Shown here one piece after another: positions 6,122-51,050 of a DNA stretch of 64,000 nt; position 1 is the stretch's first letter, and each line of letters opens with the position of its first letter. Location: positions 40,580,817 to 40,644,816 of the forward strand of contig CM060082.1 in NCBI GenBank assembly GCA_030533445.1, given 5' to 3'. The position numbers and the translations under genes are program-made. The notes under the pieces were generated by a model. That model was not told the DNA's origin and made no database searches. It was given only the letters and a program-made list of their open reading frames with translations. Source of the DNA: Cyprinodon diabolis. Taxonomy: Eukaryota; Chordata; Actinopteri; Cyprinodontiformes; Cyprinodontidae.

Positions 6122-7307
6122 CACTCACCGGCCACTTTATTAGGGAACCCCATGCTAGTAACGGGTTGGACCCCCTTTTGCCTTCAGAACTGCCTCAATT
6201 CTTCGTGGCATAGATTCAACAAGGTGCTGGAAGCATTCCTCAGGGAGTTTGGTCCATATTGACATGATGGCATCACACAGTTGCCGCAGATTTGTCGGCT
6301 GCAGATCCATGATGCAAATCTCCCGTTCCACCACATCCCAAAGATGCTCTATTGGATTGAGATCTGGTGACTGTGGAGGCCATTTGAGCACAGTGAACTC
6401 ATTGTCATGTTCAAGAAACCAGTCTGAGATGATTCCAGCTTTATCACATGGCGCATTGTCCTGCTGAAAGTAGCCATCAGAAGTTGGGTACATTGTGGTC
6501 ATAAAGGGATGGACATGGTCAGCAACAATACTCAGGTAGGCTGTGGCGTTGCAACGATGCTCAATTGGTACCAAGGGGCCCAAAAAGTGCCAAGAAAATA
6601 TTCCCCACACCATGACACCACCACCACCAGCCTGAACCGTTTCATGTTGGAGACGCCAAATTCTGACCCTACCATCCGAATGTCGCAGCAGAAATCGAGA
6701 CTCATCAGACCAGGCAACGTTTTTCCAATCTTCTATTGTCCAATTTCGATGAGCTTGTGCCAATTGTAGCCTCAGTTTCCTGTTCTTAGCTGAAAGGAGT
6801 GGCACCCGGTGTGGTCTTCTGCTGCTGTAGCCCATCTGCCTCAAAGTTCAACGTACTGTGCGTTCAGAGATGCTCTTCTGCCCACCTTGGTTGTAACGGG
6901 TGGTTATTTGAGTCACTGTTGCCCTTCTATCAGCTCGAACCAGTCTGGCCATTCTCCTCTGACCTCTGGCATCAACAAGGCATTTCCGCCCACAGAACTG
7001 CCGCTCACTGGATGTTTTTTCTTTTTTGGACCATTCTCTGTAAACCCTAGAGATGGTTGTGCGTTAAAATCCCAGTAGATCAGCAGTTTCTGAAATACTC
7101 AGTCCAGCCCTTCTGGCACCAACAATCATGCCACGTTCAAAGTCACTCAAATCACCTTTCTTCCCCATGCTGATGCTCGGTTTGAACTGCAGGAGATTGT
7201 CTTGACCATGTCTACATGACTGAGTTGCCGCCATGTGATTGGCTGCTTAGAAATTAAGTGTTAACGAGCAGTTGGACAGGTGTACCTAATAAAGTGGCCG
7301 GTGAGTG
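6122..7307 (-). mobile_element. Complete Tc1/mariner (DD36E-type) transposon
   Basis: The left end CACTCACCGGCCACTTTATT is matched by an inverted copy at the right end; the two are identical for 23 bp. Both sides are flanked by TA (6120-6121 and 7308-7309), the target duplication of Tc1/mariner elements. The transposase lies on the minus strand (next entry). Length is 1186 bp. A second copy with the same ends but an internal deletion sits at 29048-29809. Both copies have TA duplications and well-preserved ends, so the family was active fairly recently. Confidence 0.95.
6155..7168 (-). pseudogene. Tc1/mariner transposase pseudogene, two nonsense codons
   Basis: Encodes a DDE transposase that would excise and reinsert the element at TA sites. 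One frame runs from ATG at 7168 (MGKKGDLSDFERGM) to the stop at 6155, about 337 codons. It is broken only by TAA at 7064-7066 (codon 35) and TGA at 6848-6850 (codon 107). The other copy has TCA and CGA at these sites, so the second stop is a CpG-type change. The N-terminal part is a helix-turn-helix region (ARRAGLSISETADLLGF). The catalytic residues are visible: D in WSDESRFLL, D in QQDNAPCDKA and E in PQSPDLNPIEHLW. I count 36 residues between the second D and the E, so this is DD36E rather than the classical Tc1 DD34E. That matches the published Incomer-type group, but family assignment needs a tree. It cannot make a full-length protein as it stands. Confidence 0.92.
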
Positions 7308-20725: not shown

Positions 20726-22214
20726 ATATAAGTGTACTATTTTCTTATTGCGAATTTTATCGCCGTGAGTCTCTCCAGGTTGAAAACAACTCAGATTTTT
20801 TTTGGTTGAAAAAATTAAAACAGGAAAATTAAAAATTAAAAAATTTGGAAGTTTCTTTTCTGGGTGCCATTTTTGTTTATGAAACATCTTTCTTCCAATT
20901 TCTGTTTATACAATATGTCCTTTGCTTGCAGCAATAATGGAATAAAATTGACTCCATAGACAAGCAGCACTCATTATCGCAGCCTCTCTGACACATGTTC
21001 TCCACCCAAAGTGATCTTTTCATAACTGATGCCTTATTAGCACCCATGACGCTCTGCAAATGGACTTAGCCCATTTCAAGATGTTTTCTCTGGATTATAT
21101 AACAATCTTCTGTTTATTAGTCTGTTTATTTTATTTTCCTTTTATTGTTTTTACATAAATCAAGCATCTCATAAACAATGAAGTCAGCTGAAGCCTTTGA
21201 TCCCTGTTTTCATTTCTCACACATACTCTGTTTCTCCTCCATACCTCTCTGTCAATGCAGCATTCCTTTCTCATTCTCTCTGCCGTTCCAGGTATTCCTG
21301 CCTACATGTCCCGCATTCCCAGCTGTACGTCTGCCCGCAATGAAGCCATAACACCACGGTCTCCACAGCCACTTAGTGCTGGGAATACCGCCTGTGTGTT
21401 GCTCGATGAAATTCATGTGTATCCGTGAGTGCCCGTATTCCTCCCTCATGTGTGTTGATGACTTCATCCCCACCCTGTTCGCAGGCGTCAGGGTGTATTT
21501 TTGACGACATGTGTGTGTTTGTGAGTGTGTGTGGGGGGGTGTAAGACTTATGAATGGGCCTAGCAGTTATGGAGCCTGGTGCTGTTTCACATTACTGGGA
21601 AGCTGGGGTTAATTTCCTGTTGATGGACGCGGCCGGCTTGCAGATAGAAGCAGTTTAAAATGGGGGGGATTAGAACAGCGGCTGTAGTACTCAGCTGTTT
21701 AGGAGGTGAGACTGGTAGGTGAAGTGTAGCATTAAATCCTATGTTTTCAAGGCACTATATTTAAGTAGTTGAAGAACTGGCAGCGGGGAGGTGATTTTGG
21801 AACATTTATTTTGTAGCAGTGTGGTTAAAATTATAGTTGAATGGGGAAAGAAATGTTGGCTTACAGGCCTTTATTTGACTTGTTTCACTTGTGGCTGAGA
21901 AAACACTGCACCAAAGATTCACTGCTATAAAAAACGTTCTTATAATGTGACTATCGGAATTTTCCATTGGAATTTTCCAATGCTTTAGAATAAGATTATA
22001 AAAAAGGGTATACATTTCCTCACATTATAAACAAAAATGTGTTTTATGACTATAACAAGAAAAGCATAATTGCACGGCAATGGCTTTGAAACAAAAAAAG
22101 TTACAAAACTAGAAAATAATCACATTGTTTCCTTGTTTTTTTAAAATATCATATAGTGCATTTATTATAATAGCAACATACAGTATAGTTATGATATTAT
22201 TGATAGAGACCAAC
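20726..22214. other. No recognisable feature
   Basis: No repeat family, exon or RNA gene recognised. Confidence 0.5.
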
Positions 22215-22222
22215 TTACCTAA

Positions 22223-22370
22223 CCATCCATCCATCCATCCATCCATCCATCCATCCATCCATCCATCCATCCATCCACCCTTCCGTCTGCCCGTCCGTCC
22301 GTCCATCCATCCATCCATCCATCCATCCATCCATCCACCCTTCTGTCCGTCCGTCCGTCCGTCCATCCAT

Positions 22371-22401
<31 letters not shown>

Positions 22402-22569
22402 CCCTTCCGTCCGTCGGTCCATCCATCCATCCATCCATCCACCCTTCCGTCCGTCCGTTCATCCATCCATCCATCCATCCATCCAACATCCATCCATCCA
22501 CCCTTCCGTCCATCCGTCCGTCCATCCATCAATCCATCCATCCATCCACCCTTCCATCCGTCCATCCAT

Positions 22570-22603
<34 letters not shown>

Positions 22604-22818
22604 GTCCACCCTTCCGTCCGTCGGTCCGTCCATCCATCCATCCACCCTTCCGTCCGTCCGTCCATCCATCCATGCATCCATCCATCCAACATCCATCCAT
22701 CCACCCTTCCGTCCGTCCGTCTGTCCATCAATCCATCCACCCTTCCGTCCGTCAATCCATCCATCCATCCATCCATCCATCCATCCAACATCCATCCATC
22801 CACCCTTCCGTCTGTCCG

Positions 22819-22851
<33 letters not shown>

Positions 22852-22855
22852 CCAT

Positions 22856-22886
<31 letters not shown>

Positions 22887-23212
22887 CCCTTCCGTCCGTC
22901 CGTCCGTCCATCCATCCATCCATCCACCCTTCCGTCCGTCCGTCCATCCATCCATCCATCCAACATCCATCCATCCACCCTTCCGTCCGTCCATCAATCC
23001 ATCCACCCTTCCGTCCGTCCATCCATCCATCCATCCAACATCCGTCCGTCCATCCATCCATCCATCCATCCATCCATCCACCCTTCCGTCCGTCCATCCA
23101 TCCATCCATCCATCCATCCATCCATCCATCCATCCATCCATCCATCCACCCTTCCGTCTTCCGTCTGTCCATCCGTCCGTCCGTCCGTCCAGCCAGCCAG
23201 CCAGCCAGCCAG
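22223..23212. repeat. Compound (ATCC)n / (GTCC)n tetranucleotide array, ~1 kb
   Basis: Nearly pure 4-bp repeat in which runs of ATCC alternate with runs of GTCC. A marker CACCCTTCCGTCCGTCC recurs with small changes about 17 times at irregular spacing, and 'CCAACATCCATCCA' recurs about five times. The array ends with five or more CAGC units (CCAGCCAGCCAGCC). The top strand is almost purine-poor. All long open frames here, including a 379-codon plus frame (HPSIHPS...) and 237-codon minus frames (DGWMDGW...), exist because a 4-bp unit without stops stays open in all three frames. They are not genes. Confidence 0.97.
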
Positions 23213-24415: not shown

Positions 24416-24497
24416 CAAAGCTAGAGTCTTTTCTTTATTATGTCTCTTGGAAAAACCTACATTATAACCACTAAGGGACAATCCAGTGTATTTCTAC

Positions 24498-25039
24498 TAG
24501 CCTCGTGAGACCATCCTGATCTCACGAGCTTTCAAGGTTTCACTCGCTAATCAGTCTGGAGACTCTCCGTTTAAGAAAATTTGGAGCCGTTCACCAAACG
24601 AACGTCCAATCAGTGTTGGCTTTGAGGCGGGTTGAGGTGTGACGCAACGAGAAGCGCAACAGTTCAGTCTAAAGAACATGGCGGCTTCAGCAGATGAAAC
24701 TAGCGTTAGCGTGGCTATCGAGCAAGTTTTATCGGAATTACAGAGTATTTCTTCACTGAAAGAAGAGCAAAACACTGCTCTGGAGGCTTTTCTCAGAGGA
24801 AAAGATGTCTTTGCTCTTCTCCCGACTGGTTTCGGCAAGAGTTTGATCTATCAATTGGCTCCTCTTGGTCGTCGCTCTGTTATGTCATATGCTTCGTTGA
24901 TCTGATTGGTTTATTTGGCCCGTCTATCACCAACATAGGCCAATCAGCTAACCAGTATTTTCGCCCCTTCCCAAAATTACTTCAACGGAAGGTTTCCAGA
25001 TGGATATGCGGACGAAATCCATCTGGCGGAGTCAGGTTA
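24498..25039 (+). mobile_element. Helicase-bearing DNA transposon, family A copy 1
   Basis: Starts TAGCCTCGTGAGACCATCC and ends GGCGGAGTCAGGTTA. The terminal inverted match is short (TARCCT). Exact 9-bp duplications TATTTCTAC flank it (24489-24497 and 25040-25048). Length is 542 bp. Two more copies with different 9-bp duplications (43059-43582, 50273-50802) prove the ends. A subterminal palindrome lies near the left end (CTCGTGAGACCATCCTGATC then CTCACGAG). The element holds several CCAAT/ATTGG boxes and a CG-rich leader before the ATG, so it may carry a promoter. A 9-bp duplication is seen in Mutator-like elements and is near the 8-9 bp of Zisupton/KDZ. Superfamily is unassigned. Confidence 0.93.
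24678..24905 (+). CDS. RecQ-like helicase N-terminal fragment carried by the transposon
   Basis: 75-residue frame from an ATG in good context (AACATGGCGG). The frame is also open 13 codons upstream, but only from a GTG. After a short leader (MAASADETSVSVAIEQVLSE) comes the RecQ-type motif 0, LKEEQNTALEAFLRGKD. Motif I (Walker A) follows as VFALLPTGFGKSLIYQLAP. In RecQ helicases these bind adenine and the phosphates of ATP. The frame then leaves helicase sequence (LGRRSVMSYASLI) and stops, so motifs II-VI, the RQC domain and any transposase are absent. The product could not unwind DNA. Of the three family A copies this keeps the most helicase sequence and the only intact GFGKS. It is more likely a relic of the autonomous element's gene than a functional gene. 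Confidence 0.75.
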   Translation: MAASADETSVSVAIEQVLSELQSISSLKEEQNTALEAFLRGKDVFALLPTGFGKSLIYQLAPLGRRSVMSYASLI

Positions 25040-25048
25040 TATTTCTAC

Positions 25049-29047: not shown

Positions 29048-29809
29048 CACTCATCGGCCACTTTATTAGGTACACCTGTCCAACTGCTCGTTAACACTTA
29101 ATTTCTAAGCAGCCAATCACATGGCGCAACTCAGTGCATTTAGGCATGTAGACATGGTCAAGACAATCTCCTGCAGTTCAAACCGAGCATCAGTATGGGG
29201 AAGAAAGGTGATTTGAGTGACTTTGAACGTGGCATGATTGTTGGTGCCAGAAGGGCTGGTCTGAGTATTTTAGAAACTGCTGATCTACTGGGATTTTCAC
29301 GTACAACCATCTCTAGGGTTTACAGAGAATGGTCCGAAAAAGAAAAAACATCCAGTGAGCGGCAGTTCTGTGGGCGGAAATGCCTTGTTGATGCCAGAGG
29401 TCAGAGGAGAATGGCCAGACTGGTTCGAGCTGATAGAAGGGCAACAGTGACTCAAATAACCACCCGTTACAACCAAGGTGGGCAGAAGAGCATCTCTGAA
29501 CACACAGTACGTCGAACTTTGAGGCAGATGGGCTACAGCAGCAGAAGACCACACCGGGTGCCACTCCTTTCAGCTAAGAACAGGAAACTGAGGCTACAAT
29601 TTGCACAAGATCATCGAAAATGGACCATAGAAGATTGGAAAAACGTTGCCTGGTCTGATGAGTCTCGATTTCTGCTGCGACATTCGGATGGTAGGGTCAG
29701 AATTTGGCGTCTACAACATGAAAGCACGAAGAATTGAGGCAGTTCTGAAGGCAAAAGGGGGTCCAACCCGTTACAAGCATGGGGTACCTAATAAAGTGGC
29801 CGGTGAGTG
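29048..29809 (+). mobile_element. Internally deleted Tc1/mariner (DD36E-type) transposon
   Basis: Has the same terminal repeats as 6122-7307 and sits in a TATA site of the LTR with TA duplications (29046-29047, 29810-29811). It is 424 bp shorter. The missing part runs from just after the RIWRLQHE codons to the last ~20 codons of the transposase, so the second D and the E of the DDE triad are gone. Insertion into the LTR shows this copy is younger than the LTR. Confidence 0.94.
29195..29737 (+). CDS. Truncated Tc1 transposase, intact 180-residue N-terminal frame
   Basis: Starts MGKKGDLSDFERGM and stays open for 180 codons. It keeps both helix-turn-helix regions (first near residues 18-45, ARRAGLSILETADLLGFSRT; second near 85-115) and the first catalytic D in WSDESRFLL. 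It then ends in STKN and a stop because of the internal deletion. It lacks the second D and the E, so it cannot catalyse transposition. A DNA-binding-only product could still bind the element ends and act as an inhibitor; this is inference. Unlike the 6155-7168 copy, it has no nonsense codons in the shared part. It has no obvious promoter beyond the element's own ends and the surrounding LTR. Confidence 0.8.
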   Translation: MGKKGDLSDFERGMIVGARRAGLSILETADLLGFSRTTISRVYREWSEKEKTSSERQFCGRKCLVDARGQRRMARLVRADRRATVTQITTRYNQGGQKSISEHTVRRTLRQMGYSSRRPHRVPLLSAKNRKLRLQFAQDHRKWTIEDWKNVAWSDESRFLLRHSDGRVRIWRLQHESTKN

Positions 29810-30045: not shown

Positions 30046-32446
30046 TGTCAAAAGGAATCTAAGATAGCACATGGCAGTTAGTCAAAGTAAAGGCTGAGCC
30101 AATCGCTATGTCTAGGGGAAATACGGGATTGAAAACTGATAAACAGGCTTAACTCTGTAATGGAAGTTGTGATGCCAGCAGCCCAGCTGAAGCCTCCCTC
30201 TAATATATTGCCAAAGATGAACAAAGTTCCAGGCCAGATGTAGCTACTATGATAAGCAAAAGGGATCATAACGTTTCAGATTAAACTAACAAAAAATGCA
30301 GAATTAGAAAATAGAAGTAGAATAAAGCAGAGGAAAAGTGTGCCCTATGTCCTCCCACAGCCTAAGCCTATAGCTGCATAACTTAAGGATAACCCAGGAT
30401 GACCTTAGGAGTCAAAAATTACATTCCATGATCCTATGACTTTGAATCTAAAACTATTACAGCTAGCTTTGTTTATGTAAATTGACCTGATCAGGGTATT
30501 TTCTGTCTTGTACAGCAGATGTCCTTCCTCATGACTACAACCTGATAAACAGAGGAATGTTAATTTTATCTGGTACAGACGATGTTCTAGGCTGCACCTT
30601 TCGTATCTCAGACAGATGATAAATGAGTCGACAGCTATGATAAAAAAAGCAAGTGTTTTCATTCATACAACAATTTAAATACTGAGAAATAATAAGCAAT
30701 CTCTTGGTGATAGTTAAGAGTGATCCATTTTATTGCCCGTCTCATGGGCCGTGGTAACTGAACACAAAGTTTAATTTTCATGAGGGGGAGTAAGTTCTCA
30801 GCATTGCATACCTTATGGTAAAGTATTTCATTAAACTCTAGAATAGCCAGGAATTAAAAACTTCTGATGGGTGCTATGCCTTTAATTTCTAAATGATCTC
30901 CCTTACAATGTTTATATTCTTTCAAATCCAGTTTTATAATTTCTCTAAAAATATAGAAGATAATTAATCTTTTCATCCCAAAGACAGGACTAATATGGAT
31001 AATTTGGAGTGAGGGGTTTCTTTGTAACATTGATGGAGAACATGGGGTCCAAGTGACACTGTGTTAGTGTGCCTTTGTTACTTTATATGACAGACTATGT
31101 GTGAAGCCCCTGTCTCCATCCCCCTTGTAATCCCAACCCACAGTCTCCACCACAGTTTAGCCAAAGTCTGCCAGGCATCCTCATCATATTTATCGCATCC
31201 CGGCAGCCCCCCCATCCTCACAGAAGTCAGCTACTACCCCAACCATCAACATCCTCCCCTTTCTTCATCCTCTCCCTCTTCCCACACACACATTCCTGCA
31301 TTTCACAGCCATAAACAACTATTAACCTAATGTTACAAAAATCATTATAGAAGGTAAGGAAGGAACATCTGTGCAGCTGTGACAGCCAATCAGAGGAGGC
31401 AGAGGGCGGCCTAGCAATGGAAGGAAGACTCTGGTTGGTTGCCTGCTGTGCTTGCACCTTGTTGAGTTCCACCCACAACCATACATGCTCTTTATAGCCT
31501 GTCTGGTGAGGGGGGAAAGAATCAGCGGGACATAACTGGAAAAAAAAATGAGAAGGCAGGATGGGGGATTTAGCGAAAGACACACAAACACATGGAAACG
31601 GTTAGCATCTCAGCGGTGGCAGGCTGCAGCCCGCTTTCTTTTTCTCTCTGTTCTTTTTCTTTTTCATTTTCGATCTTTTACGTCCTAAAATAGGAACCAG
31701 ATTGCCTCTGTGGCTGCTTAATTTGGGCTCACTACTATTTAAGCATGTAAGTGGAAATTGAGGTGGAAACATTTAACGAAAATAAAAAAAAAAGGGGGAG
31801 GATTGGTTTCAGTGGGGGCATAAACAGAATAATTACAGAAGTAAAGGCAATTTAAGCTTAAAGAATTAAGTCTAGGCCTAACCAGCTACCACTCCTTTAA
31901 TGCCATGTTATGCAATAATGAGCTTGCTGAGTGAACCTTCTGTGGTAGACAAAATCCCATTTATTAGAAAGATGGAAGTGGATTGAATGAAGATGGAAAG
32001 AGTGTAAGTGAACGGTCCTCTTCAGCACTGTGAGAACAAGCTGAGTATCTGGAGGGGGGTCAATATAAAAGCAGCCAGGTTTAGCTTTCCTTAGCTGAAT
32101 GCCTGTGGTCACCCCTGCTTTCCTTCAGTCCAAATTGAGTGTGACTTTTGTCAAATGATGAAGGCCATCGTCTCAAAGATCAGGAGCTCTGAGAAGCCCT
32201 TGGATGAAAGTTTTAATGCAAGCATTGTTTTATGGTAGAGCCGCTATTCCTTAAATTAGGAAAAAAAATAAAATTGAACGGCTTCCCATTGCAACCACAA
32301 AGTTTAATGCATTTTACAGCGATTTTATATTGAGCAGAGAAACTAAAAGGGGGAGTATATTTGCGACATGGAAGGAAAATACAGCGACACTGAAAAGTGT
32401 GACGTCTCTTTATTATTTTCTCCCCTTTTACTCCGCTACCCTTACA
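30046..32446. other. No recognisable feature
   Basis: 2.4 kb. A moderately GC-rich stretch at 31100-31600 has open frames on both strands (118 and 89 codons minus, 77 plus) that overlap each other. None shows a domain. It could hold conserved non-coding sequence, which cannot be judged from one genome. Confidence 0.4.
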
Positions 32447-32737
32447 CACTGGAAAAAATCGAAATCTAGATCAGTAATTTTTTCTTAAAATAAGTGAATT
32501 TGTTCTTGAATTGAGGAGGTAAAAGAGACATTTTGCCAAGGGAACAAGACTATTTAAACTTAAAATAAGAAAACACAATTGCATTGACTTATTGGAAGTG
32601 CATATTATCTAAATATCTAATTTTAAGAGTAAAAATACTAACTCCATTGGCAAATGATCTCATTTACCTACTCAAATTAAGGGTAAATACACTTAATTTA
32701 AGAACGTTTTACTTATTTCTAGGTCGTTTTTCCAGTG
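32447..32737 (-). mobile_element. 291-bp CACTG MITE, copy 1 (inverted)
   Basis: Starts CACTGGAAAAAATCGAAATC and ends GTCGTTTTTCCAGTG, flanked by a 2-bp duplication CA (32445-32446, 32738-32739). Oriented opposite to copies 2 and 3. Termini CACTG with 2-bp duplications suggest a CACTA/EnSpm-like origin. The interior is AT-rich and self-complementary in blocks. No coding. Confidence 0.88.
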
Positions 32738-32811
32738 CAAAAACCCACTTGCCTCTGACAGTGACCCCACTGTTTGAAAACATTAGATAAGAAAACGCAT
32801 CATAAAGACTA

Positions 32812-33102
32812 CACTGCAAAAACAATCCAGAAATAAGTAAAAACTTCTTAAATTAATTATATTTACCCTTAATTTGAGCAGGTAAATAAGATGATCTGCC
32901 AATGGAATGAGTATTTTTACTCTTAAAATAAGATAGTTAGAAAATATTTACTTGAAATAAGACGATAAAATTGTTTTTTCTTATTTTAAAAGGAAATTGT
33001 CTTGTTCCATTGGCAAAGTGTCTTACTTACCTCCTCAATTCAAGGAAAAACGCACTTATTTTAAGAAAACATAACCTTTTGAGATTTCTATTTTTTGCAG
33101 AG
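32812..33102 (+). mobile_element. 291-bp CACTG MITE, copy 2
   Basis: Starts CACTGCAAAAACAATCCAG and ends ATTTTTTGCAGAG (one change from CAGTG), flanked by TA on both sides. It is exactly 291 bp, like copies 1 and 3, despite scattered substitutions. It is in inverted orientation to copy 1 only 74 bp away, so single-stranded DNA or RNA from 32447-33102 could fold into a long hairpin. Confidence 0.87.
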
Positions 33103-34046
33103 TAAGAAACAGAGCAGGTCAGTGAGGAAAACATTTAACATCTTATAGTTATAAATTCTTCCAATCAATAGAAAACAACAGAAGAAACAACCCTAGTTAC
33201 TCCAGAGGAGCGGCTAAGATCCACAGCTGAGCTCTTAACCATGAATCAGGGTTTCCTCCAGGATTTCTTGGAACCATATAACAATAAAAACCACATCATA
33301 GCTTTTAAAATGTTGTTAAAATACATGGCTAAAGTACACTGTTTATTATGGACATAAACTTGTGCTATCAGAAAATGAATCTAAATTGCCCAGAGTGAAT
33401 CGGTATGTGCAAAAGTTCAAATTAAATGTGCTGGATCGAAAGCTATAATGTAAAACTGAGTGAAAAAAAAAAGTATATTGATTTAAAACTAAGCTAATTG
33501 GTTTGAGAAACTCGTCTGACCAGCCCAATGCATTTCAGTGCATTGATTAATAATCCAAATGAACTCCCATCCAGAACAAGGGAATGTAGACAGAGGAGAA
33601 GATTCACCTTCTCAACCTCTAACAGCAAAACTAAGCCAATATGGTAGTAGGGTTGACTTAGTGTTATAGGTTATGTTTAAACAGGGTTAGGGCTAAAATT
33701 TTTTTTTTTTTTTCACCTCGGTCCATATTTATATAGGTAATAAAAACAAACTGATCAATGATTATCAATAGCAACTGATATGAAAGGCTTTTATGAGCCA
33801 TATCACACAGCTTTGGATTTGGCTTAAGCAATTTGCAGGGAAGAACTAAGGAACATTTATTTTAAAAGTGCAAAACTGGCTTAACACTTGCAACTTTAAA
33901 TGCAGCGGAAGGTATTGCTTCCAAATGATGGTTGATTATGGTAGTTTTCTACCTGTTGGTTTTTATGCAATTCAAGACAAACTAAAATCCCTGGGAAATA
34001 TTATGGAATTTGTGGCTGCAAGGTAGAAAAAGAACATGCTTTTTTT
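33103..34046. other. No recognisable feature
   Basis: AT-rich DNA with a 17-bp T run near 33700. No exon or repeat family recognised. Confidence 0.45.
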
Positions 34047-34604
34047 CTCAACTCAACTCAACTCAAACTTTATTTATAAAGCACATTTAAAACAACCAGG
34101 GTTGACTAAAGTGCTGTACAGGAATCACAGTTAAGGAACATAAGATAAAAGCTTAAGGCTAAAATACATAAACACATAAAAATAGAATAAGATAAATGTT
34201 TCAATTAAAATACATTTTAGAATAAAATAAAAATTTAAAATAAAATTTTGCCAAATGTCCACTTAGACATGATTAAAAGCCAGGGAGAAGAAATGTGATT
34301 TTAAAGAGGCTTTAAAAACCTCAAAGGAGCCTGCTGATCTAATATGCCAAGGCAAGTTATTCCAGAGCCTCAGTGCAGCTGCCATAAAGGCACCTTTAGT
34401 TTTAAGTCTGGTTTTAGGCATCGCGAGTAGCAGCTGATTAGAAGATCTCAGTGTTCTGGCCGGGGCATGGATTTGGTAGCCTGACGTAGTCCTACTCAAT
34501 TCTAGTCAGAATATGAGTCTGATTCTGCTCCATAGAGGTGTGATTATGGGGCGTGTTTCGAACGAACCAGGAAAAAAAATGCCTCTGCACTCAATTGGAT
34601 AGAC

Positions 34605-35113
34605 CTACAACCAATAAGAGCAACAGAGTGCGTGACGTATGTTAAGCCACGCATAGTTGTTGTCAACAAAAATCAAAGCGTGTGGTTGCATGCCTAGAAT
34701 AAGAAGATGAGCCTTGATCGCGTTTCTCTCACTGCAAAAATGATCTAGAAATAAGTAAAAATGTCTTAAATTAAGTGTATTTACCCTTGATTTGAATAGG
34801 TAAATTTGATAATTTGCCAATGGAATGAGTATTTTTACCCTTAAAATAAGATAATTAGATAATATGCACTTGAAATAAGACAATGCAATTGTGTTTTCTT
34901 ATTTCAAATCTAAATTGTCTTGTTCCATTGGCAAAATATCTCTTTAATCTCCTCAATTTAAGAAGAAATGCACTTAGTTTAAGAAAAAATTACTTATCTA
35001 GATTTTGATTTTTTCCAGTGCTGTTCCTCTTTTAAAATAAATTTGCTGTCGATATCTTCTAGATCAGACCTAATAGCAGAATCTATATACCTCAACTCTC
35101 CAGCGGCAGCCAT
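34605..35113 (-). pseudogene. RecQ-like helicase N-terminal fragment, interrupted by MITE
   Basis: Starts at ATG 35113 in context AACAATGGCTGC. Thirty-one codons (MAAAGELRYIDSA..., ending FILKEEQ) lead to the MITE at 35020. On the other side, the frame resumes at 34727 with RNAIKAHL and later runs into non-helicase sequence, with a stop at 34605. LKEEQRNAIKA matches RecQ motif 0 and lines up with LKEEQNTALEA of family A at nearly the same distance from the start (31 versus 45 residues). Motif I is not present, apparently lost in the internal deletion that made this a short element. It is not functional. Confidence 0.65.
34730..35020 (+). mobile_element. 291-bp CACTG MITE, copy 3, nested
   Basis: Starts CACTGCAAAAATGATCTAG and ends TTGATTTTTTCCAGTG with CT on both sides (34728-34729, 35021-35022). 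It interrupts the helicase-like frame of the family B element. Removing the MITE and one CT restores a continuous frame across the site (EQ then RNAIK), which independently confirms the 2-bp duplication. Confidence 0.9.
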
Positions 35114-35909
35114 TGTTGTTGTCACCCAAGCACGCTTTGGTGACGTGGTTGATTACGTTACTGTTGATCATCTGTCCATCATCGTATAAAGCCCACCCTG
35201 ACAATTTGATTGGCCCGCCAGATATTGTGCGATCATACTCGCGCTACTGTTGAGCAATGCCAGACCGAACTTCCCGACCTCAAACGTTGTGGGCGGGACT
35301 AAGTTTGGAATGGCACCCAGGCTATGGATTTGGAGAAGCTCGGTCAAATACTGGGGGGTTAGACCATTAAGAGCTTTAAAAACAAACAATGAAATTTTAA
35401 AATCTATCCTAAAAACAACCGGGAGCCAGTGCAGTGAGGCTAGAACAGGTGATATGTGGTCATGTTTCCGTGTGCCAGTAAGGAGACGGGCAGCTGCATT
35501 TTGTACCAACTGCAGACGGTGTAAAAGTGAGCGGTTCAAGCCAGCATATAAAGAGTTGCAATAATCCAATCTTGTATTGATAAAAGCATGGATTACGGTC
35601 TCCAGATCTTTTTGTGGCAGGTACCCTTTCACTTTTGATAAAATTCTTAACTGATAAAACCTATTTTTTTTACTACCGAACTAACCTGGCGATCAAATTT
35701 CAACCTGTCATCAAATATTACACCAAGATTTTTTTACTGATGATCGAATGTTAGGTGTAAGAGGGCCCAAGAAGCCAGGGGGAAAAACTACTGGACTACA
35801 ACCAAACATTATAATTTCTGTCTTACTTTCTTACCATTTAGTTTACAGTTCATCCCACAGAGCTTTGGAAATAGAATTACTGTCTTTAGACCCCAATGAA
35901 AAAAAATAA

Positions 35910-43049: not shown

Positions 43050-43058
43050 GTAACTTAT

Positions 43059-43582
43059 TAACCTGACTCCGCCAGATGGATTTGCTCCGCATATCCATCT
43101 GGAGACCTTCTGTTGAAGTAATTTTGGGAAGGGGCGAAAATACTGGTTAGCTGATTGGCCTTTGTTGGTCATAGATGGGCCAAATAAACCAATCAGATCA
43201 ACGAAGCATATGACGTACTAACAGAGCGACGATGAAAGCACACCCACAAGCCAGTCGGGAGAAGAGCAAAAACATCTTTTCCTCTGAGAAAAGCCTCCAG
43301 AGCAGTGTTTTGCTCTTCTTTCAGTAAAGAAATACTCTGTAATTCCGATAAAACTTGCTCGATAGCCACGCTAACGCTAGTTTTATCGGCTGAAGCCGCC
43401 ATGTTCTTTAGACTGAACTGTCGCGCTTCTCGTTGCGTCACACCTCAACCTGCCTCAAAGCCAACGCTGATTGGACGTTCGTTTGGTTAACGGCTCCAAA
43501 TTTTCTTTAACGGAGAGTCTCCAGACTGATCTGCGAGTGAAACCTTGAAAGCTCGCGAGATCAGGATGGTCTCACGAGGCTA
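43059..43582 (-). mobile_element. Helicase-bearing DNA transposon, family A copy 2
   Basis: Plus-strand ends TAACCTGACTCCGCCAGATGG-like (first 20 bp) and GGTCTCACGAGGCTA, flanked by exact 9-bp duplications GTAACTTAT (43050-43058, 43583-43591). It is 524 bp long and reversed relative to copy 1. Confidence 0.94.
43193..43402 (-). pseudogene. RecQ-like helicase N-terminal fragment, truncated before the Walker A lysine
   Basis: Starts at ATG 43402 (MAASADKTSVSVAIEQVLSE), keeps LKEEQNTALEAFLRGKDVFA and LLPTG, then jumps to LWVCFHRR and ends at 43193. The deletion removes FGKS and what followed, so the Walker A motif is incomplete and no ATP could be bound. The break differs from that of copy 1, which reaches YQLAP. 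Confidence 0.7.
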
Positions 43583-43591
43583 GTAACTTAT

Positions 43592-46208: not shown

Positions 46209-46740
46209 AAATGTCTGGATCCGCAGTGAGTTTGAGTCTTATATGGACAAAGCCTTGTATCGCTTGGAAACATGCAAATGGTAACAGATGAATGGGTCGT
46301 TTGGTTCCATTGTTAGCCTGTAATATCTGAAACCTGTCTATGATTCTGAAGGTCGGTCGTTAAAGGGGGGATTGCCGTTTAGGGGGGGTTGTCTCCTGTA
46401 ATACCTGCGTGCAACGATTTAAAAAAATCTCACAGTCTATGCCCGGCTTAAGGTAGTGCTCCAAAAAGTCACTTAGATGCCCTCTACTTGATTTTAATTT
46501 AACCTCTCTAAGAAAAAAGGCTTTTTATATTGTATATTATATGGCAGAAGAGATGATTTTATTGGTTTATTGATTTAAAATTGTGCGTATACATAAGCTT
46601 CCAGCATAACAACACTTGGTTGTGAAAGGAAGCTAGCTTTACAGGGAGCTTTTCGACACTAGCTTTTACTTTAAAAGGCTTCAAATCAACTTTACTTATA
46701 TTTTGAAAGTGGATAAACTTCCAGTTCTAGCAGCGTAGGA
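46209..46740. other. No recognisable feature
   Basis: No exon or repeat family recognised. Confidence 0.4.
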
Positions 46741-46769
46741 GAGCTCACAGTGCAGCTCTGCAGCCAGGG

Positions 46770-47336
46770 TCCTGACAGTGCAGGTCTGGGTCCTGACAGT
46801 GCAGCTCTGGGTCCTGAAAGTTCAGTTCTGGCTCCTGACAGTGCAGCTCTGGGTCCTGACAGTTCAGTTCTGGGTCCTGACACTGCAGCTCTGGGTCCTA
46901 AAGGTTCAGGCCTGGGTCCTTACAGTGCAGCTCTGGGCCCTGACAGTTCAGGTCTGGGTCCTGACAGTGCAGCTCTGAGTCCTGACAGTTCAGGTCTGGG
47001 TCCTGACAGTGCAGCTCTGAGTCCTGACAGTTTAGTTCTGAGACCTGTCAGTTCAGGCCTGGGTCCTGACAGTGCAGCTCTGGGTCCTAAAGGTTCGGGC
47101 CTGGGTCCTTACAGTGCAGCTCTGGGCCCTGACAGTTCGGGTCTGGGTCCTGACAGTGCAGCTCTGAGTCCTGACAGTTTAGTTCTGAGACCTGTCAGTT
47201 CAGTTCTGGGTCCTGACAGTGCAGCTCTGGGTCCTGACAGTTCAGTTCTGGGTCCTGACAGTGCAGCTCTGGGTCCCAACAGTTCAGTTCTGGGTCCTGA
47301 AAGTTCAGTTCTGGGTCCTGACAGCGCAGGTCTGCA
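46770..47336 (+). repeat. 21-bp minisatellite, about 27 units
   Basis: The unit begins GGGTCCTGACAG and is 21 bp, alternating 'TGCAGCTCT' and 'TTCAGTTCT' or 'TTCAGGTCT' endings. Because 21 is divisible by 3 and the unit has no stop, a frame of 230 codons (46750-47442) reads as heptads like GPDSAAL and GPDSSVL; minus frames are open as well. A larger block (GPKGSGL GPYSAAL GPDSSGL ...) occurs twice, at about 46897-47058 and 47086-47205, showing expansion of multi-unit blocks. It is not evidence of a protein gene. Confidence 0.95.
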
Positions 47337-47344
47337 GCCAGACA

Positions 47345-47480
47345 CCTCTCAAATCAGCTGGTTTTCCTTAGATAGAAAATGTTTAACCAATCTATATGAT
47401 CTGGTTAAATTGTCTCTGTACAGTGCTTTGAGATTAAATTAGTTGTGAACTTTCACTTTATAATTAAAGCGAATTGAACT
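47345..47480 (+). mobile_element. L2-type LINE 3' end adjoining the minisatellite
   Basis: 'AATCAGCTGGTTTTCCTTAG', 'GATCTGGTTAAATTGTCTCT' and 'CAGTGCTTTGAGATTAAATT' correspond to the L2-type tail (compare 20690 and 45170). The minisatellite begins immediately upstream and may have arisen within the LINE's UTR. Confidence 0.6.
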
Positions 47481-50184: not shown

Positions 50185-50272
50185 CCATCTATCCATCATA
50201 TCCTCTTTGATCAGTTGAGGTGAGGCTGATGCCTATCTCCACCAGTCATTCAGTCAATGGGAGGATACACCC

Positions 50273-50802
50273 TAACCTGACTCCGCCAGATGGATTTGCT
50301 CCGCATATCCATCTGGAAAACTTCCGTTAAAATAATTTTGGGAAGGGGCGAAAATACTGGTTAGCTGATTGGGCCATGTTGGTGATAGATGGGCCAAATA
50401 AACCAATCAGATCAACGAAGCAAATGACGTACTAACAGAGCAACAACGAAAACACAACCACAAGCCAGGCTACTCTTGTCGAAACCAGTCGGGAGAAAAG
50501 CAAAAAGATCTTTTCCTCTGAGAAAAGCCTCCAGAGCAGTGTTTTGCTCTTCTTTCAGTGAAGAAATACTCTGTAATTCTGATAAAACTTGCTCGATAGC
50601 CACGCTGACGCTAGTTTCAGCCGCCATGTTCTTTAGACCGAACTGTCGCGCTTCTCGTTGCGTCACACCTCAACCCGCCTCAAAGCCAACGCTGATTGGA
50701 CGTTCGTTTGGTGAACGGCTCCAAATTTTCTTTATCGGAGAGTCTCTGATCTGCGAGTGAAACCTTGAAAGCTCGCGAGATCAGGATGGTCTCACGAGGC
50801 TA
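50273..50802 (-). mobile_element. Helicase-bearing DNA transposon, family A copy 3
   Basis: Plus-strand ends TAACCTGACTCCGCCAG and GGTCTCACGAGGCTA, flanked by exact 9-bp duplications GATACACCC (50264-50272, 50803-50811). It is 530 bp long and inserted in the older dispersed repeat, whose empty site is reconstructed by removing the element and one duplication. Confidence 0.95.
50412..50627 (-). pseudogene. RecQ-like helicase N-terminal fragment with altered Walker A
   Basis: Starts at ATG 50627 (MAAETSVSVAIEQVLSELQS; four residues shorter at the N-terminus than copy 1). It keeps LKEEQNTALEAFLRGKD, then LFAFLPTGFDKSS. The glycine before the key lysine is changed to D (GFDKS). The frame then leaves helicase sequence (LACGCVFVVALL) and stops at 50412. 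Its deletion point lies between those of copies 2 and 1. Confidence 0.7.
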
Positions 50803-51050
50803 GATACACCCTGGACTGGTAGGCAGTTGGTGACAGGGTAACACAGAGACACACAAACATGCACACACACCGTCACCTAGGGAAAATGTTGACATGCCTA
50901 ACGGTCATGTTTTAGGTGGGAGAGAGACAGAATACCCAGAGAAAACCTACGCATGCGTTGGAGAGAACATGCTTCCAACTTCATGCTGAAAGACCCTTGG
51001 ACAGGAATCTAAACCGTGACCGTCTTGCTGCAAGGTAACCGTGCTAGAAA

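Follow-up and report, generated by a model that had tools for sequence, protein, structure and literature searches.

Short transposon copies with a RecQ-like helicase start in Cyprinodon diabolis, probable derivatives of a two-gene element resembling AcademH

The paper that defined AcademH, by Kojima in 2020, reportedly names animals and fungi in its title. In the excerpts available of other papers, AcademH transposons generate duplications of 9 or 10 bp and AcademX of 3 or 4 bp, a difference tied to helicase and nuclease (PMC10045372), a RecQ helicase is mentioned in Academ (PMC3627910), AcademH helicases are described in fungi (PMC10799480), and Academ is listed in zebrafish, medaka, and stickleback (PMC4746887). 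A further excerpt presents KolobokH as a DDE transposon with a RecQ helicase, reported only from fungi, and a rhodophyte Kolobok with the RecQ helicase on the complementary strand (PMC9587614). Here, a stretch of 64,000 nucleotides from Cyprinodon diabolis (contig CM060082.1, positions 40,580,817 to 40,644,816), referred to as the window, is described, in which three short elements (copies A, B, and C) carry the start of a RecQ-like helicase gene. With a probability of about 0.9, these copies are nonautonomous, internally deleted derivatives, comparable to miniature inverted-repeat transposable elements (MITEs), of a DNA transposon with two genes, one for a RecQ-like helicase and the other for a protein with the Pfam domain DUF6589. 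A first-pass annotation of the window had considered a helicase unusual for a cut-and-paste transposon, which is overstated in view of the excerpts cited above, where RecQ-type helicases already appear in Academ/AcademH and Kolobok. The element is real but mostly not new in kind, and it resembles the named class AcademH.

Direct reading of the window confirmed the coordinates of the three copies and the different exact 9-bp target-site duplication (TSD) claimed around each of them (Table 1); according to a simple count, an exact pair of 9-mers would be expected by chance at about 4e-6 per copy. The pairwise identity among the copies is 89.5 to 91.3%. The elements start with TAGCCTCGTGAG... and end with ...GGAGTCAGGTTA, the inverted repeats being just about six bases long. 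Regarding the subterminal hairpins of copy A, the left one is weak because of the number of shuffles that match its folding.

The frame common to the copies opens with an ATG at element base 181 (24678 in copy A) and reads MAASADETSVSVAIEQVLSELQSISSLKEEQNTALEAFLRGKDVFALLPTG. In copy A, residues 1 to 63 (24678-24866; MAASADETS...LPTGFGKSLIYQLAPL) match the start of RecQ-like helicases through motif I, and the last 12 residues are read-through past the internal deletion. As the first-pass annotation had noticed, the frame is common to the three copies up to LPTG and motif I (GFGKSLIYQLAPL) is intact in copy A, being A the only one of the three where this is the case. Among the frames of 21 genome copies chosen for their likeness to copy A, itself counted, LPTGFGKS is kept in 15 and changed in five, and one frame is cut short earlier. 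Moreover, the copy A frame matches both kinds of model that the annotation had proposed for comparison, the RecQ family profile TIGR00614 (E 1.2e-8) and Pfam DEAD (E 2.3e-6), and, among PDB entries, a chain of RecQ (E 1.1e-5); its likeness exceeds chance. The frames of copies B and C gave no Pfam match.

Table 1. Coordinates of the elements, duplications, frames, and hairpins in the window
Feature	Position	Strand	Details
Copy A	24498..25039	+	542-bp nonautonomous element
TSD of copy A	24489..24497 and 25040..25048		9 bp, exact pair, TATTTCTAC
Helicase-start frame, copy A	24678..24905	+	75 residues with stop
Left subterminal hairpin, copy A	24499..24530	+	z -1.74; 11/200 shuffles fold equally well
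Right subterminal hairpin, copy A	24996..25026	+	z -3.41; 1/200 shuffles folds equally well
Copy B	43059..43582	-	524 bp
TSD of copy B	43050..43058 and 43583..43591		9 bp, exact pair, GTAACTTAT
Frame in copy B	43193..43402	-	with stop; residues 1-51 helicase-like; ends LPTG, motif I incomplete
Copy C	50273..50802	-	530 bp
TSD of copy C	50264..50272 and 50803..50811		9 bp, exact pair, GATACACCC
Frame in copy C	50412..50627	-	with stop; residues 1-52 helicase-like; motif I altered, GFDKS for GFGKS
Sister-family nonautonomous derivative	34477..35324	-	848 bp; ends TAGCCTG...CAGGCTA; split by a 291-bp repeat (34730-35020)
TSD of sister derivative	34468..34476 and 35325..35333		9 bp, exact pair, TGGATTTGG

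The host genome (936 contigs, 1.22 Gb) was searched with the RecQ family profile, which gave 53 matches, with 51 of 3915 candidates scored. The matches comprise RecQ genes of several exons dispersed over the genome, short elements, and a group of helicase copies whose open frames are longer. Within this last group, a copy on C14 (L059) opens with the first 375 bases of the short element, at 94% identity to copy A, and then runs into helicase exons, which identifies C14 as the parent family. When its interior was used as a DNA query, 17 matches were obtained, being C14 itself and 16 pieces of a sister family with 67 to 88% identity. The C14 copy is damaged: the helicase start is broken by a frameshift, there is one stop in the matched exons of the second gene, and a stretch at about L059 7563-8566 looks retroelement-like by eye. 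The sister family has a long element of 11,108 bp on C12 that starts with TAGCCTGGGTGCC, ends with ...CTACGTCAGGCTA, is flanked by the exact 9-bp duplication TGGGCTTCC, and contains an insertion labeled by eye as similar to a long interspersed nuclear element. Further sister copies are found on C8, with the left end intact and the last 30 bp missing, and on C19, C6, and C4. Also, the window itself holds a nonautonomous derivative of the sister family, whose left 304 bp are 90% identical to the C12 element and retain the helicase start (MAAAGELRYIDSAIRSDLEDIDSKFILKEEQ). Overall, the element ends correspond to TARCCT/AGGYTA, of 6 to 7 bp.

These long elements support the autonomous parent with a RecQ-like helicase that the first-pass annotation had proposed, because they hold a complete helicase together with a putative DDE transposase and 9-bp duplications; the search for them that it had suggested recovered both genes, with two ends and a 9-bp duplication only in the sister family (C12). 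The support has limits. C14, the sole long copy of the exact family, has the left end and no recognizable right end within 18 kb, so the complete two-ended example belongs to the sister family, and the ends of that family diverge from those of the short copies after the first six bases.

The second gene matches Pfam DUF6589 and occupies the other strand, in convergent orientation to the helicase, in both families (E 2e-15 in C14 and 7.9e-14 in C12) and also in C8; this adjacency in two families, like the ends and the duplications, is read directly from the DNA. A genome-wide search for DUF6589 gave eight matches in seven places, every place near a transposon-type helicase copy, with distances to the nearest helicase within 3 kb on C19, C14, C4, C12, and C8, and of 24 and 30 kb on C6. 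A stretch resembling a retroelement breaks up at least one of the C6 copies (L060); in a mechanical frame list, open frames at L060 8098-9999 on the minus strand, close to the long copy there, look like retroelement gag/env. DUF6589 was found in 0 of 14 control prokaryotes. Regarding other organisms, the DUF6589 and helicase proteins of Mugilogobius have adjacent locus tags (WMY93_002922 and WMY93_002923), those of Branchiostoma belcheri (P0002, P0087) are both on a contig of 316,285 bases, and an environmental pair (P0170, P0076) is on a contig of 7,067 bases, the contig being presumably the same one in each of these two cases. Other pairs lie on equal-sized chromosome-scale contigs and are weaker evidence of pairing. 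A protein search with DUF6589 gave 36 proteins from fish, amphioxus, and Mytilus, some without an organism name, and a profile search gave 51, adding Clytia; the composite query has its nearest match in Alosa pseudoharengus (62% of the query covered, at 90%). A structure model of the DUF6589 protein aligns best in fold with Hermes, ISCth4, and the P element, and by eye it shows an RNase H-like core in which a helical insertion precedes the last acidic residue. According to this model, the DUF6589 protein is most likely the RNase H-like DDE transposase of the element, which would provide a likely function for the Pfam domain.

The short copies taken alone would look like the product of a single capture, in which a MITE from an ordinary superfamily such as MuDR acquired exon 1 of a RecQ gene of the host and spread it by amplification, and the duplications of MuDR-type elements, of about 9 bp, would fit in length the ones observed here. 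However, this scenario is already contradicted by the long elements that share the left end and hold further helicase exons. Moreover, the peptide of the short copies is only 36 to 62% identical, over 21 to 53 residues, to the RecQ exons of 13 host loci, chosen as host genes by the analyst, whereas it reaches 53 to 70% over 46 to 64 residues with transposon-type helicases of other species (25 best rows). Also, no MULE domain was detected in 19 open frames of long elements, 10 of them from the 30 frames of at least 75 residues in C8 (E up to 0.01) and nine from C14, C6, and C12 (E up to 0.1). A single capture is therefore highly improbable: the annotation had taken as signs of it the lack of long elements coding for a helicase and a near-identity to one host RecQ exon, and what was found is long elements that do so and a low identity to the host exons.

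The helicases of the long elements and their relatives share the common helicase core with the cellular RecQ proteins (RecQ, WRN, BLM, RECQ1, and RECQ5). For example, the relative P0037 matches TIGR00614 with an E of 1.8e-56, and its best PDB matches are RecQ and WRN (E about 1e-33). The difference is that these helicases score under the curated cut-off of that profile (157.6 to 198.4 bits in four of four scanned, against 219.8). No RQC, zinc-binding, or HRDC domain was found in the three helicases scanned with Pfam (P0037, P0038, and P0047). A protein search gave 531 proteins at E <= 1e-10, with bacterial RecQ at about 30 to 34% identity among 120 listed; the composite helicase query is closest, among the matches listed, to Alosa pseudoharengus, with 96% over the entire query. 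Also among the matches listed, gene models from fish and amphioxus that bear the names RecQ-like, RecS, Q1, BLM, or Werner group with the transposon helicases, so automatic names may mislead. A number of the fish and amphioxus genes named RecQ, RecS, Q1, BLM, or Werner are likely transposon genes, and an annotation flag is warranted.

Comparison of C14 with the sister copies gave synonymous and nonsynonymous differences (pS and pN) of 0.669 and 0.169 (95 codons) and of 0.57 and 0.301 (80 codons) for two stretches of the helicase, and of 0.746 and 0.252 (542 codons) for DUF6589, the ratios being rough because synonymous sites are near saturation. Both genes are maintained under purifying selection, and thus the helicase is a working gene of the transposon: this fish cut-and-paste transposon maintains its RecQ-like helicase and does not carry it as a passenger. 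The situation differs for the short copies. That these are functional genes, whose short helicase peptide would regulate transposition, could be thought from the survival of the frame in most copies read and from its fewer changes per site (26/189 sites in 24678-24866 vs 83/356 in the rest of the element), for which CpG content is one candidate cause. However, the changes in the frame, counted in the short copies other than B and C, are 22 nonsynonymous and four synonymous, with an expected nonsynonymous share of 0.70, and the low divergence of the copies read points to a young age. The amino-acid sequence of the short-copy frame shows no selection, and a regulatory peptide is scarcely credible.

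With regard to classification, the closest known type is quite probably AcademH, judged by its printed description. The 9-bp duplications (three of three copies in the window, the sister derivative, and the C12 long element) fit the 9 to 10 bp of AcademH, and the long elements encode a superfamily 2 (SF2)/RecQ-type helicase as AcademH does; based on both traits, the element is provisionally filed under AcademH. DUF6589 is modeled as a DDE transposase. Kolobok targets TTAA and gives a 4-bp duplication, whereas the duplications here are 9 bp and non-TTAA. This difference, the match of the second gene to DUF6589, and the purely fungal record of KolobokH in the excerpt mentioned above make an assignment to that type very unlikely. 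The hAT (Hermes) and P elements produce 8-bp duplications, unlike the 9-bp ones here; their transposases are among the best rows aligned with the DUF6589 model, a likeness in fold only, and no hAT or P Pfam match was obtained in the 19 frames scanned. Helitrons make no target-site duplication, unlike the element here with its 9-bp TSDs, and the helicase is RecQ-type by profile.

An unlikely alternative, with more in its favor than the preceding ones, is that the DUF6589/RecQ pair constitutes a separate DDE superfamily, AcademH-like only in its helicase and 9-bp duplications: the AcademH likeness comes from description and not from sequence, and Hermes, ISCth4, and the P element head the fold matches. 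On the other hand, duplication length, helicase, and occurrence in animals agree with the AcademH traits in the excerpts available. A broader proposal, speculative and only slightly more favored, is that the pair is a distinct animal DDE superfamily, or a deep AcademH branch, with the helicase as obligate partner, and that the near-identical short copies clustered toward chromosome ends are kept alike by gene conversion instead of recent movement. If this were true, many fish and amphioxus genes called "uncharacterized" or "RecQ/WRN-like" would be transposon genes.

Regarding the short copies across the genome, copy A used as a DNA query returned 1354 candidates at first look, of which the best 40 were scored, every one at least 97% identical, and 28 of these loci were read, copy A included, a sample biased to A-like copies. 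Exact terminal motifs are present at both ends in 22 of the 28 loci and missing in six. The 9-bp duplications of these 22 copies, A included, are exact in seven, with one mismatch in 10, with two in three, and absent in two. Their divergence from the consensus is 0.2 to 1.9%, being 4.0% for copy B and 5.7% for copy C. As a side observation, a contig end is no more than 5 Mb away for 33 of the 40 best-matching copies, against 21.5% under a uniform distribution (P about 3.5e-16), in a count that treats contigs as chromosomes and assumes the size of C9, with no effect on its two copies near 3 Mb. Also, in the 20 copies whose duplications can be recognized, mismatches affect 16 of the 180 positions of these duplications, above the level implied by the element divergence. 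Gene conversion near chromosome ends would account for both patterns, error-prone gap filling being an alternative. These patterns are a lead and not a result because they come from the best 40 of 1354 copies only.

Returning to the two-gene transposon as the source of the short copies, the long element starts with TAGCCT and ends with AGGYTA, with very short inverted repeats, an SF2 RecQ-like helicase of about 595 residues (the length of P0037) read from the left end, and the putative transposase convergent on the other strand. The DUF6589 transposase would bind the short ends, and perhaps also the hairpins, and excise the element, which would insert with a 9-bp stagger whose repair by the host would generate the duplication. 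The helicase may aid strand transfer, unwinding or remodeling of the ends, or repair of the gap and the donor. The short copies would be born by internal deletion, keeping the left 375 bp or so (end, promoter region, and, by descent, the helicase start) and about 165 bp on the right, and would be mobilized in trans. The simplest explanation for the presence, in both families, of a short derivative retaining the helicase start is a requirement in cis for the leftmost few hundred bases. The pair offers a natural system to ask why a DDE transposon retains its own helicase.

Other repeats are present in the window. The 291-bp repeat that interrupts the sister derivative is A+T-rich and occurs also as an inverted pair with a 74-nucleotide spacer (32446-33103). 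Two long open frames, at 6155-6847 on the minus strand and 29144-29737 on the plus strand, look by eye like pieces of Tc1/mariner transposases and sit on arms of 582 nucleotides that are 98% complementary. Finally, a tandem array with a short unit occupies 22129-23000, and a 21-bp tandem array, whose frame repeats GPDSAAL-like heptads, is found at 46679-47439.
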